NCBI RefSeq assembly: GCF_011947195.1
Contig: NZ_JAATVY010000035.1
Coordinates: 1 to 55,697 of the forward strand
Direction: 5' to 3'
DNA: 55,697 nt
From: Planosporangium thailandense
GTDB lineage: Bacteria > Actinomycetota > Actinomycetes > Mycobacteriales > Micromonosporaceae
How positions within the stretch are numbered: position 1 is the first letter of the stretch; the number at the start of each line of letters is the position of its first letter. Under the pieces are notes generated by a model that made no database searches, had not been told where the DNA came from, and was given only the letters and a program-made list of their open reading frames with translations. The position numbers were made by a program, and so were the translations under genes. Of this stretch, positions 45,218-50,828 are shown in pieces.

Positions 45218-47131
45218 ATGACTGTGAACGGTTCGGGGCTGCTGGACCTGGTCTGTGGCCCGGCCGGTCCACTGCCGGAGACCTACCAGCGCTACCGCCT
45301 CGTCGCGCACCTCGGCTCCGGGGGGCAGGCCGACGTGTACCGCGCGGTGCGGCTGTGCGGGGGAGTGTCGTCGGCGCCGTTGACGGTCAAGGTCTTCCGG
45401 GTCGACCCGCGCCGACCGGTCGTGGACGAACTGCGTTCGTGGGACAAGGGCGACGCGGTGCTGATGGATCTGAACAACCGGGGTGTACAGGCGATCTGCC
45501 GCCGCGCGGACGGCTTCTACGGCCCGCCGCCGCACCGCCCGGGGGAGCCGCCCGACGTCGGCGACGCCGTGCCCTATCAGGTCTACGACTACCTGCACGG
45601 GGTCAATCTGCGCGAGTACGTGTGCGACCGGGCGGGGCTCGCCCCGGGGGCGCGCCGGCTCAACGCGGTCGACGCGCTCGCCACGCTCGCGGGCGTGCTG
45701 CGCGCGCTGCACCACCCGACGGAGCCCGGGGCCACCCCGGTGCTGCACATGGACGTCAAACCGTCCAACGTGATGGTGCTGGCGACCGGAGAGGTGAAGC
45801 TGATCGACTTCACCGGCGCGCGGTACTGGCGACCCGAGGAGATCACCCAGATCGCGTACACGCCGGAGTCCGGTGGTCCGGAGGCGTTCGGCGGCGCCTC
45901 GCAGGTCGGGCCCGCCTACGACGTGCACGGCTTCGGAGCGGTCGCCTACTTCCTGGTGACCGGCGACTACCCCAGGGAGTCGGGCCAGCAGCGCGCGGCC
46001 GGCGAGGAATCGCCGCCGGCCTGGTCAGTGCTGCGCCGCCACCCGGCGCTCGAGCGGCGCCCCGCCCTGCGCGACCACCTGCACGAGATCCTCGCCGACC
46101 GGCCCGGCGACCGGCCGTCGACCCACGAGCTGCCGGCATGGGTCGAACGCCTCACCGAGCTGGTCCACCAGGCCGGCATCCCGGACGCCGGGGTGGACTG
46201 GGGCGAGCCGGAGACGGCGCGGGTCGTCGGCCGGGCCAGGCCGAGGCCGCCGGTCGCGGGCACCGAGACCGAGGCCTTCCAGCGGATCGAGAAGCTGGAG
46301 CGTGAGCTGGTCGAGCTGCGCGCCGCCCTCGGTACGCCCGACGAGCTCCGTGCCCGAGACGAGATCCGCGGGCGGGCCACGGCTGCGGCGAACGGCTTCA
46401 CGCCCGGTCCGGGCGCCACCCGGTTGGCGTCTGACGGCAGGGCGGGTGCCACCCGGTTGGCCCCTGACGGCAGGTCGGGCGCGCTGGAGGGCCCGACCGG
46501 CGAGCAGCGGCGGGTAGCGCCGGACCGGCCGGTGTCGGCGGCGCCGGTTTCGCCCGCGGGCGCCGCGCCCACAGCCGTGTCGCCCGCGGCCATGGCAATG
46601 TCACCGGGGTCCGCTGCCGGGTCGCCCGGGTCCGCTGCCGGGTCGCCGGCCGGGCCGGGTGGTGCGGCCGCGGCATCGCCGGCTTCCGCGCACATCCAGG
46701 GTCGGGCCGCCGTCCCACCGCCGAAGCGCGTCGACCCGTCGCAGTCGGTCCTCGCGCCCGCGCAGGAGGCCGCACCGTGGCCGCAGCGGCCCCGGGAGGA
46801 GCCCGGGACGTGGAAACGCGGCTGGGAGCTGTCCGGCATCGGGGCGTTCTTCGCGTTCATCTGCTGGGGGATCTGGGCGGCGAGTGCGCGTGGGCGGCTG
46901 GCGGGTCCGCTGATGGCGTTCGGCCTCGTACTGCTGGTCGCCGCCGGTGTGTTCGCGGTGGTCCGGTTGCTGGGCCGGGTCGTGCTGGTCAACCGGCTGG
47001 GCCGGGTGCGGCGTGGAGCCCGGGGCGCCCACACGATCACCGGGGCGTTCCTGATCGTGGCCGGTATCGCGTACCTGCAGCAGACGCCGTGGGTGATGCA
47101 GGTGTACCGATGGGTGACCGGCACGTCCTGA
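45218..47131 (+). CDS. Membrane-anchored Ser/Thr protein kinase
   Basis: 637 residues. The kinase domain (about 25-310) has the Gly-rich loop LGSGGQADVYRA, the ATP lysine in TVKVF, the catalytic loop HMDVKPSN, and IDFTGAR in place of the usual DFG. A short coiled coil follows (AFQRIEKLERELVELRAAL, about 355). A Gly/Pro/Ala linker holds two repeat tracts: GATRLASDGRA / GATRLAPDGRS and GSAAGSPGSAAGSP. Two or three membrane helices end the protein. The substrates are unknown. Confidence 0.87.
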   Translation: MTVNGSGLLDLVCGPAGPLPETYQRYRLVAHLGSGGQADVYRAVRLCGGVSSAPLTVKVFRVDPRRPVVDELRSWDKGDAVLMDLNNRGVQAICRRADGFYGPPPHRPGEPPDVGDAVPYQVYDYLHGVNLREYVCDRAGLAPGARRLNAVDALATLAGVLRALHHPTEPGATPVLHMDVKPSNVMVLATGEVKLIDFTGARYWRPEEITQIAYTPESGGPEAFGGASQVGPAYDVHGFGAVAYFLVTGDYPRESGQQRAAGEESPPAWSVLRRHPALERRPALRDHLHEILADRPGDRPSTHELPAWVERLTELVHQAGIPDAGVDWGEPETARVVGRARPRPPVAGTETEAFQRIEKLERELVELRAALGTPDELRARDEIRGRATAAANGFTPGPGATRLASDGRAGATRLAPDGRSGALEGPTGEQRRVAPDRPVSAAPVSPAGAAPTAVSPAAMAMSPGSAAGSPGSAAGSPAGPGGAAAASPASAHIQGRAAVPPPKRVDPSQSVLAPAQEAAPWPQRPREEPGTWKRGWELSGIGAFFAFICWGIWAASARGRLAGPLMAFGLVLLVAAGVFAVVRLLGRVVLVNRLGRVRRGARGAHTITGAFLIVAGIAYLQQTPWVMQVYRWVTGTS

Positions 47132-47147
47132 CCAGGGAGACGATCAA

Positions 47148-47181
47148 GGCCCAGGCGGCGATCACACCGACTGCCTGGGCC
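47148..47181. terminator. Terminator, left copy of the tRNA-Gly terminator
   Basis: GGCCCAGG pairs with CCTGGGCC around an 18-base loop that itself partly pairs. It closely resembles the hairpin at 49018 and can end both the kinase gene and the XRE gene. Confidence 0.8.
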
Positions 47182-47189
47182 TTCGTTCG

Positions 47190-47217
47190 TGGAGCGGGCG
47201 ACGGGAATCGAACCCGC
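47190..47217 (-). repeat. 28-nt copy of the tRNA-Gly 3' end (att-like remnant)
   Basis: The bases are identical to 49062-49089, which form the T arm, acceptor 3' strand and CCA of tRNA-Gly. The match stops sharply at 47217, where the XRE stop codon begins. The rest of the tRNA is missing, so this is not a working gene. Confidence 0.9.
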
Positions 47218-48056
47218 TATCCGACGAGTGTCTGGGTGCCGAGTACGGTGAGCAGGGCGAGGCGGTCGGCGTCCGCGGTGCCGGGCTCGGCCGTGTAGAT
47301 CATGATGTGCAGGTCGCTGCCCTCCACCGTGAGCACGTCGCAGTCCAGCGTCAGAGGGCCCACGTGCGGATGATCGATGGTCTTACGCGCGGCCTCGTGG
47401 CGGCCGACGGCGCTGGAATCCCACAGCTCGGCGAACCGGTCGCTGTTCGCCCGCAGTTCCGCGACCAGCCGCCGTAGCCGCTGGTCGGCCGGGTAGCGGC
47501 CGGCGGCCGCGCGCAGGTCGGCAACCAGCACCGTCTCGAACGCGCGCAGGGACTCCGGGGTGTGCCGGGCCCGGGTGCCCGGGCCGAGAAAATGTCGCCA
47601 CACCGCGTTGCGCTCGTTCCCACGCCACCCGGACGGGTCGCCCATCAACGCCGCGTACGGCGGGTTGGCCAGTAGCAGCGTCCACGACGCGTCGTACACC
47701 CCGACCGGTGTCCCGGTCAGCCTGTCCAGCAGCCGCTGGACGCTCGGGGTGACGTGCGCGGGTACCGTTTCCGGGCCGGGCGGCACCAACCCGGCCAGCC
47801 GGAACAGGTGGGCGCGCTCGGTCCCCGCCAGCCGCAGCGCCCTGGCCAGGGCTTCGACCACCTGTGCCGACGGATTGGACGCGCGGCCCTGTTCCAGGCG
47901 GGTGATGTAGTCAACGGAGATCCCGGCCAGCAGAGCCAGCTCCTCACGGCGCAGTCCGGCCGCCCGTCGGTGCCCGCCGGCGGGCAGCCCGACGGTCTCG
48001 GGTGACACCCGGTCGCGCCAGCGGCGCACCGCCGTTCCGAACTCCGTCGCCGTCAC
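47217..48056 (-). CDS. XRE-family regulator with MmyB-like ligand domain
   Basis: 279 residues. The N-terminal helix-turn-helix is LRREELALLAGISVDYITRLEQGRASNPSAQVVEALARAL (about 33-72). The C-terminal MmyB-like domain includes YDASWTLLLANPPYAALMGDPSG and NAVWRHFL, followed by EAARKTIDHPHVGPLTLDCDVL. Such proteins often repress a neighbouring redox enzyme gene and bind a fatty acid or similar ligand. GTG at 48056. The TAG stop (47217-47219) overlaps the last base of the tRNA-Gly remnant, so the gene ends exactly at the repeat. It is divergent from the SDR gene, its probable target. Confidence 0.9.
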   Translation of the reverse strand: MTATEFGTAVRRWRDRVSPETVGLPAGGHRRAAGLRREELALLAGISVDYITRLEQGRASNPSAQVVEALARALRLAGTERAHLFRLAGLVPPGPETVPAHVTPSVQRLLDRLTGTPVGVYDASWTLLLANPPYAALMGDPSGWRGNERNAVWRHFLGPGTRARHTPESLRAFETVLVADLRAAAGRYPADQRLRRLVAELRANSDRFAELWDSSAVGRHEAARKTIDHPHVGPLTLDCDVLTVEGSDLHIMIYTAEPGTADADRLALLTVLGTQTLVG

Positions 48057-48060
48057 GCCA

Positions 48061-48102
48061 CCAGTGTGTACCGCTCACTGGCGGTTTTGCCTGGTACCGG
48101 CA
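48061..48102. promoter_or_regulatory. Operator-like palindromes between XRE and SDR genes
   Basis: CCAGTG-N9-CACTGG (48061-48081) and TGCC-N7-GGCA around GGTACC (48088-48102) lie in the divergent region. Both are placed for control of both genes by the XRE protein. Confidence 0.5.
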
Positions 48103-48158
48103 GTCCCATGAAGACGGGACGACTGGCTGACCTCACCGCCCGACCGGAGCCTGGAGGC

Positions 48159-48866
48159 ATGACAACAACACTGATCACCGGAGCGAACAAGGGGCTCGGG
48201 TTCGAGACCGCCCGTCGCCTCATCGCAGCCGGCCACACCGTCTACGTCGGCAGCCGAGACGCCGAACGCGGGCGCCGAGCCGCTGAGCAACTCGGCGCGC
48301 GGGCCGTCCAGCTCGACGTCACCGACGACGCGTCCGTGGAGGCCGCGGCGAAGGCCATCGAGGCTGATGGCGGACTGGACGTACTGATCAACAACGCGGG
48401 CATCGAGGGAAGGGGTGCCGGCAACATCGTGATCGGCGCCGCGGACGTGACCGCCGACATGATGCGGGAGACGTTCGAGACGAACGTCTTCGGCACGGTG
48501 CGTGTCACCCACGCGTTCCTGCCGCTGCTGCAGCGTTCGGCCGCCCCGGTCATCGTCAACCTCAGCAGCGGCCTGGCCTCGCTGGCCCGGGTCACCGACC
48601 CGGGCACCCCGACGTACGCGTACCCGGGGGTCGCCTACCCGGCGTCGAAGGTCGCGGTCAACATGATCACCGTGCAGTACGCGAAGGCGTTCCCGAACAT
48701 GCGGATCAATGCGGTCGAGCCCGGCTTCACCAGGACCGACCTTAACGGGAACACCGGCACTCAGGCTGTCGAGCAGGGCGCCGAGATCATCGTCCGTATG
48801 GCGCAGGTGGGCCCCGAGGGCCCCACCGGAGGCTACTTCGACGCCGAAGGCACCCTGCCCTGGTAG
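48159..48866 (+). CDS. Short-chain dehydrogenase/reductase
   Basis: 235 residues from the ATG at 48159, where GGAG lies 9 bases upstream. It starts MTTTLITGANKGLGFETARRL. The NADP motif is TGANKGLG, and R in VGSRDAERG supports NADP. NNAG is near 78, and the catalytic Tyr-Lys is in AYPASKVAVN near 156. An in-frame ATG at 48066 would add 31 residues and cover the operator region, so I prefer the shorter form. The substrate is unknown. The pairing with a divergent MmyB-type regulator is a common arrangement. Confidence 0.88.
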   Translation: MTTTLITGANKGLGFETARRLIAAGHTVYVGSRDAERGRRAAEQLGARAVQLDVTDDASVEAAAKAIEADGGLDVLINNAGIEGRGAGNIVIGAADVTADMMRETFETNVFGTVRVTHAFLPLLQRSAAPVIVNLSSGLASLARVTDPGTPTYAYPGVAYPASKVAVNMITVQYAKAFPNMRINAVEPGFTRTDLNGNTGTQAVEQGAEIIVRMAQVGPEGPTGGYFDAEGTLPW

Positions 48867-49017
48867 GAGCAGGTGCAACCAGGCTGCGAAGCTCTGCGGA
48901 CACCGCCAGTGACCGCGAGATCGCCGCCAGGGTGGACCGCCGGATCACCGGTACTGACACGGGTGGACCAATGGCACGCGGCTGGCACGCAAGGCCAAGG
49001 ATCTTGGAAATGACGAA

Positions 49018-49053
49018 GGCCCAGGATCGGCGATCACGCCGACTGCCTGGGCC
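49018..49053 (-). terminator. Terminator of tRNA-Gly
   Basis: GGCCCAGG pairs with CCTGGGCC, with an inner CGGCG/CGCCG stem. It lies just downstream of the tRNA on the minus strand and between the SDR stop and the tRNA. Apart from this, 48867-49061 holds no gene that I can support. Confidence 0.8.
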
Positions 49054-49061
49054 CTCGTCGC

Positions 49062-49135
49062 TGGAGCGGGCGACGGGAATCGAACCCGCACCGTCAGTTT
49101 GGAAGACTGAAGCTCTGCCATTGAGCTACGCCCGC
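49062..49135 (-). tRNA. tRNA-Gly (anticodon TCC)
   Basis: The acceptor GCGGGCG/CGCCCGC is perfect with discriminator T, and CCA is encoded. The anticodon stem TCAGT/ACTGA closes the loop CTTCCAA, giving TCC. The T arm is GCGGG TTCGATT CCCGT. Its last 28 bases are repeated at 47190. Confidence 0.95.
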
Positions 49136-49263: not shown

Positions 49264-49337
49264 CGGGGTGTGGCGCAGCTTGGTAGCGCACTCGCTTTGG
49301 GAGCGAGGGGCCGTGGGTTCAAATCCCGCCACCCCGA
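49264..49337 (+). tRNA. tRNA-Pro (anticodon TGG)
   Basis: The acceptor CGGGGTG/CACCCCG is perfect with discriminator A. The anticodon stem CTCGC/GCGAG closes the loop TTTGGGA, giving TGG. The T arm has GTGGG TTCAAAT CCCGC. CCA is not encoded. Confidence 0.95.
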
Positions 49338-49457
49338 CCGAGACCGCCGACGGCCGTACGTCGGCGGGTGCAGCCCGTCCGCGAAGGCGTCGGGTGGGCT
49401 CGCCTAGACTTTTCCCGGCCGACGCGGCCGCCAGTCCGTCCATCATGAGGAGTACCT

Positions 49458-50828
49458 GTGAAGAGCACCGTCGAGACTCTCAGCCCGACCCGCGTGCGGC
49501 TGGCCATCGAGGTGCCGTTCGCCGAGCTCGAACCCAGCCTCAAGAAGGCCTACCGCGAGATCGGCGCGCAGGTCACGATCCCCGGCTTCCGGCGCGGCAA
49601 GGTGCCCGCCGCCGTGATCGACCAGCGGGTGGGCCGGGGCGCCGTGCTCAACGAGGCTGTGCAGGAGGCCATTCCGGCGCAGTTCCTCGCCGCGGTCCGT
49701 GAGCACGAGGTAAAGACCCTGGGCCGTCCCGAGGTGGAGATCACCGAGTTCGCCGACGGCGCCCCGCTGAAGTTCACCGCCGAGATCGACGTCCGCCCCG
49801 AGATCACGCTGCCGAACCTCGAGGAGGTCGAGGTCACCGTCGACGAGGTCCAGATCGGTGACCAGGAGATCGACGAGCAGCTCGCCGCGCTGCGGGACCG
49901 GTTCTCGACGCTGAAGACCGTCGAGCGGGCCGCCGCCAACGGCGACTACGTCCAGCTCGACCTGGCCGCGACCGTGGACGGCGAGGAGGTGCCGGGCGGC
50001 ACCGCGACCAACGTCTCGCACGAGGTGGGCAGCGGTCAGCTGCTGCCGGGCCTCGACGAGGTCCTCGTCGGCATGTCCGCCGACGACTCGACCACCTTCA
50101 CCACCCAGCTCGTCGGCGGCGAGTACGCCGGCCGCGACGCCGAGGTGGCGGTCACGGTCCGGACCGTCAAGGAGAAGCAGCTGCCGGAGCTCGACGACGA
50201 CTTCGCCCAGCTGGCGAGCGAGTTCGACACGCTCGACGAGCTGCGCGCGGACCTGCGTACCCGGCTTGAGCGCGTCAAGCGCGTCGAGCAGCTCTACGAC
50301 GCCCGGGACAAGGCGCTGAAGGCGCTGGTCGAGGCCGCCGACGTGCCGGCGCCGGAGGGCATCGTGCGCGAGGAGGTCGAGCAGCGCAAGGAAGCGATGA
50401 ACGACCAGCTCCAGCGCATCGGCGCGTCGATGGACGACTACCTCCAGTCCGAGGGCAAGTCGCAGGAGGAGATCGACACGGAGCTGTCCGAGGCGGCCGT
50501 CGAGGGCGTCCGCATCCAGCTCGTGCTCGACACCCTTGCTGACGCCGAGGACATCCAGGTCTCCGACGACGAGTTCGGCCACGAGATCGTCCACCGGGCC
50601 CAGCGGGCCGGCGTCTCGCCCCAGCAGTACTACGACCAGCTCATCCGGTCGGGCCTGGCCGCCGCGGTCTTCGGTGACGTACGGCGGGGCAAGGCGCTCG
50701 CCATGGTCATGGAGCGGGTCAAGATCCGCGACGCTGCGGGCAACGAGCTGTCGCTCGATGACCTCCGGGGTGCGGACGGTGCGGGCGAGGAGCACGACCA
50801 CGATCACGACCACGACCACGAGGACTGA
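49458..50828 (+). CDS. tig: Trigger factor chaperone
   Basis: 456 residues from the GTG at 49458, with AGGAG upstream. Trigger factor meets nascent chains at the ribosome exit and has prolyl isomerase activity. The ribosome-binding signature GFRRGKVPAAVI is near residue 44. The isomerase domain covers about 150-240 (ANGDYVQLDLAATVDGEE, then LLPGLDEVLVGMSADDS). A helical C-terminal domain follows. The protein ends in a His/Asp tail, EEHDHDHDHDHED, a likely metal-binding stretch. It is followed by its own terminator and then clpP1, the usual order. Confidence 0.95.
   Translation: MKSTVETLSPTRVRLAIEVPFAELEPSLKKAYREIGAQVTIPGFRRGKVPAAVIDQRVGRGAVLNEAVQEAIPAQFLAAVREHEVKTLGRPEVEITEFADGAPLKFTAEIDVRPEITLPNLEEVEVTVDEVQIGDQEIDEQLAALRDRFSTLKTVERAAANGDYVQLDLAATVDGEEVPGGTATNVSHEVGSGQLLPGLDEVLVGMSADDSTTFTTQLVGGEYAGRDAEVAVTVRTVKEKQLPELDDDFAQLASEFDTLDELRADLRTRLERVKRVEQLYDARDKALKALVEAADVPAPEGIVREEVEQRKEAMNDQLQRIGASMDDYLQSEGKSQEEIDTELSEAAVEGVRIQLVLDTLADAEDIQVSDDEFGHEIVHRAQRAGVSPQQYYDQLIRSGLAAAVFGDVRRGKALAMVMERVKIRDAAGNELSLDDLRGADGAGEEHDHDHDHDHED

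Follow-up and report, generated by a model that had tools for sequence, protein, structure and literature searches.

In the draft genome of Planosporangium thailandense (G000), an XRE regulator gene and an SDR oxidoreductase gene lie between an intact tRNA-Gly and a copy of its 3' end. How the pair came to lie there was analysed in a stretch of 55,697 nt (the window) and by comparison with congeners and other genomes of the family. The original prediction had read the arrangement as tRNA-targeted integration without an integrase, leaving a stripped element, a cassette carried in by another element or one moved in trans; the regulator/redox pair would then be a mobile unit of its own. The features are collected in Table 1.

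Table 1. Features of the tRNA-Gly locus (window positions) and of integrase-joined sites in relatives (locus positions).
Feature	Position	Strand	Basis
Protein kinase gene, chromosomal flank	45218..47131	+	Pfam; order in relatives
Hairpin adjoining kinase	47146..47183	-	Read by eye; taken as native tRNA-Gly terminator (inferred from position)
28-nt remnant, other att half-site (tRNA-Gly 3' end)	47190..47217	-	Sequence identity
XRE regulator, MmyB-like ligand-binding domain, full length, 279 aa	47217..48056	-	Pfam MLTR_LBD, HTH_31
Conserved near-palindrome, putative XRE operator	48090..48110		Alignment of 57 intergenic regions including G000
SDR oxidoreductase, full length, 235 aa	48159..48866	+	Pfam adh_short
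Donor flank that came with SDR	48889..48919	+	Also downstream of SDR in G266, G356, G013
Junction GACCGCGAG, 9-bp microhomology, SDR donor flank/integrase tail	48911..48919	+	Alignment with donor-type loci
Tyrosine-integrase C-terminal tail, 14 recognisable codons (DREIAARVDRRITG)	48911..48952	+	nhmmer, blastn
TGGCACGC pair, copies 11 bp apart; putative arm-type sites of integrase	48972..48990	+	Comparison with relatives
Terminator-like hairpin, element side of intact tRNA	49016..49054	-	Read by eye; most aligned relatives likewise
Intact tRNA-Gly(TCC)	49062..49135	-	Sole tRNA-Gly call by ARAGORN
tRNA-Pro and tig (trigger factor), chromosomal flank	49264..50828	+	tRNA call; order in relatives
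CTTG sites joined to integrase sequence	L204:1097, L205:2096, L216:676, L222:1118, L229:128, L240:2763

The 28 bases previously assigned to the 3' end of tRNA-Gly(TCC) were identical to it throughout (47190-47217 and 49062-49089), and the first 20 of them occurred on the + strand of the window at just two places (47190 and 49062). The repeat ran outward through both hairpins (47156-47217 against 49028-49089, 57 of 62 positions identical), in agreement with the similar hairpins with small differences noted earlier; both were identified by eye. Searched against the draft genome, 47130-47230 matched three places: its own position, 49016-49089 (E = 5.6e-22) and, weakly over 44 nt, contig C27. The XRE stop codon was placed correctly on the last base of the repeat, the G of TAG being 47217. 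To judge from the geometry, the 3' half of the intact tRNA-Gly would have been supplied by an integrated element, on the attL side. The kinase-side hairpin is taken as the native terminator on account of its position after the kinase stop, where congeners with an empty site also have their hairpin. The two copies had been described as enclosing only the XRE and SDR genes; both were recovered by Pfam, and an integrase tail with adjoining repeats was found there too, occupying about 150 bp from the SDR stop to the tRNA-side hairpin.

Integration at this tRNA is borne out by relatives, among which both empty and occupied sites were found. Two of three congeners (G001 and G002) have an empty site, reading kinase, hairpin, tRNA-Gly, tRNA-Pro and tig, with one tRNA-Gly, one hairpin and about 50 bp and 90 bp, respectively, from kinase stop to tRNA. 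In the third (G003), about 690 bp separate kinase and tRNA (L086:3300-3996), and 45 nt of this spacer match the inner end of an element in another relative, G011 (82%, E = 1.6e-6), so that G003 looks like another, differently decayed remnant. The G011 element (12.7 kb, at the same tRNA-Gly) carries genes for an integrase, RepSA (PF20199, E = 9.3e-102) and FtsK_SpoIIIE, and about 14 kb with an integrase occupies the same tRNA-Gly in G021 (contig C2). The G011 Rep and Tra score far below NCBIfam cut-offs, so the label 'AICE' is based on Pfam and on layout. A match to 48895-49100 of the window that extends from the integrase tail through the tRNA was found in at least 11 of 299 other family genomes. 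On a second G011 contig (C10; L096, L087), more copies of the tRNA-Gly 3' end are found with element ends, possibly a tandem array that runs into contig C21.

From the SDR stop towards the tRNA, the sequence runs GACCGCGAGATCGCC...GACCGCCGGATCACCGG, two copies of TGGCACGC lying 11 bp apart, the hairpin and the tRNA. The G011 integrase ends in the counterpart DREIARAMDRRITG followed by 6 more residues, with the same kind of repeats and a hairpin next; the window tail has no aligned stop codon. The TGGCACGC pair stands at the same place after the integrase gene in relatives, and no second such pair was found in the window. An nhmmer profile of 12 relatives, from which terminator and tRNA had been excluded, gave 48909-48993 as its sole significant match in the window (E = 8.2e-12), a test that is favourable to the tail because 10 of the 12 loci had been retrieved by a query that contained it. 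The integrase tails of G011:C21, of a second G011 copy and of G021 were found by tRNA similarity alone, independently of the window tail. By blastn, the G011:C21 tail alone, the cleaner test, had its top match in the window at 48911-48993 (72% over 87 bp, E = 3.5e-6), the second G011 tail matched the repeat part only (E = 1.3e-4), and the G021 tail gave short weak pieces (E = 0.07), with a better chance match elsewhere in the window. Taken as protein alone, the 14 codons gave no significant match (E = 0.66 for the domain and 0.27 for the sequence, third in rank within the window): they scored 7.3, while the best scores of 50 shuffled windows averaged 7.1 and reached 11.5. What makes the case for the integrase tail is its position and the order of the features. 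G011 Int, Tra and Rep and G021 Int had no match in the window at E <= 1e-3. The statement that the locus is without an integrase thus needs amendment: most of the gene is gone, and its C-terminal tail survives.

The far half of the att site was compared at 18 tRNA-Gly loci picked from double matches to 48895-49100 (one of them, L250, had no intact tRNA in the stretch fetched). The far tRNA copy measures 41-45 nt in 17 of the 18 and 34 nt in L245, and 44-46 nt in the G011 and G021 elements; that of the window measures 28 nt. In nine of 12 far ends compared, a pair of TGGC-type repeats lies 11 nt apart and begins about 97-100 nt past the core; the remaining three contain one such repeat only. 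No inner repeat pair was found on the far (XRE) side of the window. The short core and the absent repeats therefore indicate a broken att half with the XRE stop on a deletion or capture junction: judged by its sequence, the XRE-side border is such a junction and not an att border. Here the donor stop codon meets the T-stem of the tRNA, and the two share about 2 bp, an overlap that proves nothing.

At the other border, the sequence GCTCTGCGGACACCGCCAGTGACCGCGAG is found past the SDR gene in G266, G356 and G013 (with one difference in G013), and the window has the same sequence up to 48919. After GACCGCGAG, the window continues into the integrase, whereas G266, G356 and G013 continue into other DNA. 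The two joints, one in 9 bp of microhomology and one between stop codon and T-stem, point to foreign DNA having replaced the inside of an AICE relic; both borders of the XRE-SDR pair look illegitimate, and the element in the window is predicted to be unable to excise. The joint in the window, on comparison, does not fit a deletion of the CTTG type described below for other relics.

The pair itself is ordinary and intact, a common divergent pair of actinomycetes. Its XRE protein matches PF17765 (E = 2.5e-50) and PF13560 (E = 8.6e-13), as expected of the MmyB-like family, and its end coincides with the end of its relatives; the SDR gene is divergent from it across a shared promoter region. The account of this family (MltR, PF17765) in PMC3406030 describes XRE-MmyB genes divergent from an SDR gene, as in the window, and MmyB-type regulators adjoining SDR/MDR genes in actinomycetes, and the present pair differs from that linkage by location only, inside an AICE relic. 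Comparison of the two genes with three relatives gave dN/dS of 0.15-0.27 (own script). No listed NCBIfam model for the XRE or the SDR passed its cut-off (best 25 of 207 for the SDR), and a PDB sequence search with the XRE returned two short HTH chains only, MltR itself not being retrieved. The nearest solved chains of the SDR carry the names alcohol dehydrogenase 1 and menthone reductase, from which the enzyme would likely act as a carbonyl reductase. By analogy with its relatives elsewhere, the XRE presumably responds to a small ligand and regulates its own gene together with the divergent SDR gene.

Loci with related XRE genes (best 80 of 130) were examined with up to 8 kb of flank, some ended by contig ends. 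An SDR match adjoined the XRE in 64 of the 80 (two below 40% identity, one a fragment), and 56 had a divergent SDR of >=65% identity within 200 bp. Among pair loci, DNA similarity gives out close to the XRE stop on one side and not more than tens of bases beyond the SDR stop on the other, and half of the set (40/80) shared no flank of >=500 bp with another member. A tRNA gene was present in just 10 of the 80, and each of these held its 21-nt tRNA 3' end once (exact match only). By tblastn at E <= 1e-6, G011 Int, Tra and Rep and G021 Int had no match in 79 of the 80; in the sole matching locus (L144), the unit of tRNA and integrase seems to be oriented away from the pair. Across 354 family genomes the closest pairs were 92% (G266) and 90% (G282, G212) identical, and 19 pair loci from this set had no tRNA gene or tRNA copy within 1.5-kb flanks. 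None of the three congeners has a close pair at E <= 1e-60 (best XRE 42-43%); a distant pair of the same kind lies elsewhere in G003 (contig C423), with 67% DNA identity over the SDR part.

The integrase tail with its repeats, the empty congener sites and the AICE-like element of G011 together argue for a stripped AICE, one of the options offered in the original prediction, and the G003 remnant agrees with it. We hold it very probable that the locus is a stripped AICE relic at tRNA-Gly whose inside was overwritten by a foreign MmyB-XRE/SDR pair. In the proposed history, an AICE with a tyrosine integrase would have entered the 3' half of tRNA-Gly(TCC), bringing a new tRNA 3' half and its own hairpin and displacing the native 3' end and terminator toward the kinase. 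Decay would then have stripped away the backbone, most of the integrase gene and, at the far att site, the inner portion (some 16-18 nt of core and the arm repeats). The lost parts would have been replaced by foreign DNA of about 1.7 kb (from 47216 to around 48919) that holds the full-length pair and its conserved operator. One of its ends would have joined within the microhomology GACCGCGAG in the integrase tail, and the other, with the XRE stop codon, inside the T-stem of the tRNA. The two junction sequences are read directly, as are the empty site, the elements at the same site, the tail, the repeats and the donor flank; the order of events, and a single replacement as the source of both junctions in place of AICE cargo followed by two deletions, we infer.

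The main rival is that the pair was AICE cargo, left behind when the backbone was deleted and the far core trimmed as well. The G011 element does have non-backbone ORFs beside its far att end, and relics at tRNA-Gly in other genomes retain single cargo genes. Against this, the SDR-side flank is common to the G266, G356 and G013 loci, where no tRNA lies within 1.5 kb, and enters the integrase at the microhomology; the far core ends exactly at the XRE stop; and element genes accompany related pairs at one locus of 80, in the L144 unit that appears to face away. We regard the cargo reading as unlikely, at a level that still calls for it to be carried alongside overwriting of a stripped relic.

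Two further readings would dispense with the overwritten relic altogether. That the pair is an autonomous cassette, using the tRNA repeats and an integrase in trans, could be thought of from the direct repeat that bounds it and from its patchy distribution (a match at E <= 1e-60 in 102 of 354 family genomes including G000, many partial or distant). A duplicated tRNA 3' end, however, was found at none of the 80 related loci, 10 of which hold a tRNA gene; DNA similarity ends near the gene ends and not at the repeat; and one att half lacks its repeats and part of its core. The pair was therefore rejected as a tRNA-targeting unit, and with it the suggestion of a mobile unit of its own. Movement in trans fares no better: searched against the draft host genome, the G011 integrase has a top match of 31% identity, on which grounds supply by the host was rejected, and the XRE-side border is not att-like. 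Such a cassette strikes us as highly improbable. We give equally little credence to a duplication of tRNA-Gly and its terminator by no mobile element at all, which would explain why the repeat continues through the hairpin, further than att identity needs (57/62). It leaves the integrase tail and repeats between the copies, the empty site of congeners and the integrase-bearing elements of relatives unaccounted for, and several other elements likewise have a similar hairpin beside each tRNA copy.

The overwritten relic was set against known systems. It resembles AICEs such as pSAM2 and pMR2, as they are described in PMC3218068, in a tyrosine integrase beside a tRNA and integration at the tRNA 3' end, and the G011 element, which occupies the same site, adds to the likeness by its RepSA and FtsK-type proteins. 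Unlike an intact AICE, the window has no Rep or FtsK-type Tra gene, keeps a 14-codon tail in place of an integrase gene beside the tRNA att site and has a broken far att site. What it does have is the same tRNA, the order integrase tail, repeats, hairpin and tRNA, and an empty site in congeners, as expected of an AICE relic. The description of CIMEs in PMC7563491 (1.2-13 kb for the classical ones) fits in that a decayed element with a small gene load lies between att repeats, here over 1.9 kb. CIMEs by that description keep their att sites; in the window one is truncated (core of 28 nt against about 44, no inner repeat pair), which therefore makes it a further-decayed relic than a CIME. A known process has left a well-preserved fossil here, and the locus is no new kind of mobile unit.

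Shorter relics were found at the same tRNA-Gly in relatives. In ten genomes (G279, G246, G159, G204, G287, G311, G183, G284, G188 and G168; loci L234, L237-L241 and L243-L246), 1.2-2.8 kb lie between tRNA-Gly and the far copy. The cargo varies, including an alpha/beta hydrolase (G246), a PIN protein (G183), a GmrSD_C nuclease (G188) and a PadR regulator (G287); one G311 ORF matched no Pfam family, and a 4.3-kb case (G248) holds an epoxide hydrolase and DUF1963. The cassette of the G246 locus (L237:788-2464) measures 1.56 kb and keeps a far core of 44 nt, a far repeat pair and, of the integrase, a tail only; it is a good candidate to be mobilised by some related element.

The conserved segment of such elements ends in a GC hairpin and CTTG. 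Of 13 different CTTG contexts compared, 7 continue into similar conserved sequence and 6 into integrase sequence, the latter at five different points located at the integrase start codon or further in, one of them common to G272 and G279. At three of the five points, intact integrases have G as the base ahead of the joint (CTTG or CTCG, CCTG, CTGG), and at one they have A, the fifth right-hand deletion point not being exactly placeable; only three of the five right-hand points resemble the nick word. Several elements also have an imperfect, MITE-like inverted repeat of about 140 bp ahead of the CTTG region (L240:2465-2603). RepSA acts by rolling circle, and pSAM2 has been put in the pC194 family partly by its nick site, according to the account in PMC3218068; the complement of the pC194 origin is given as CTTG/ATAATA at the nick in PMC5037232. 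The CTTG site thus resembles a rolling-circle nick site, and the relics look like deletions that start exactly there. It is a fair guess that rolling-circle replication errors made those relics, though not the window's own joint. A limited literature search found no description of deletion from a replication origin as a source of such relics.

For the original question, a decayed and overwritten AICE accounts for apparent integration without an integrase, and it cautions against reading tRNA-bounded gene pairs as mobile units. The proposed mechanism of relic formation in the relatives is the more interesting lead. One chromosomal site keeps AICE relics with different single genes in many relatives, and deletions from a replication origin would be a testable route from AICEs to small cassettes. 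As a tentative proposal, to which we assign a rather low probability, the tRNA-Gly(TCC)-tig site of Micromonosporaceae may be a recurrent platform of erosion and capture, where AICEs would lose their backbone through errors of their own rolling-circle replication, by deletions running from directly behind a conserved hairpin and CTTG to varied points at or inside the integrase gene; small cargo cassettes would remain between the att sites, some of them perhaps mobilisable by a later AICE, and the locus in the window would represent a later stage in which such a relic was overwritten by foreign DNA through microhomology joining.
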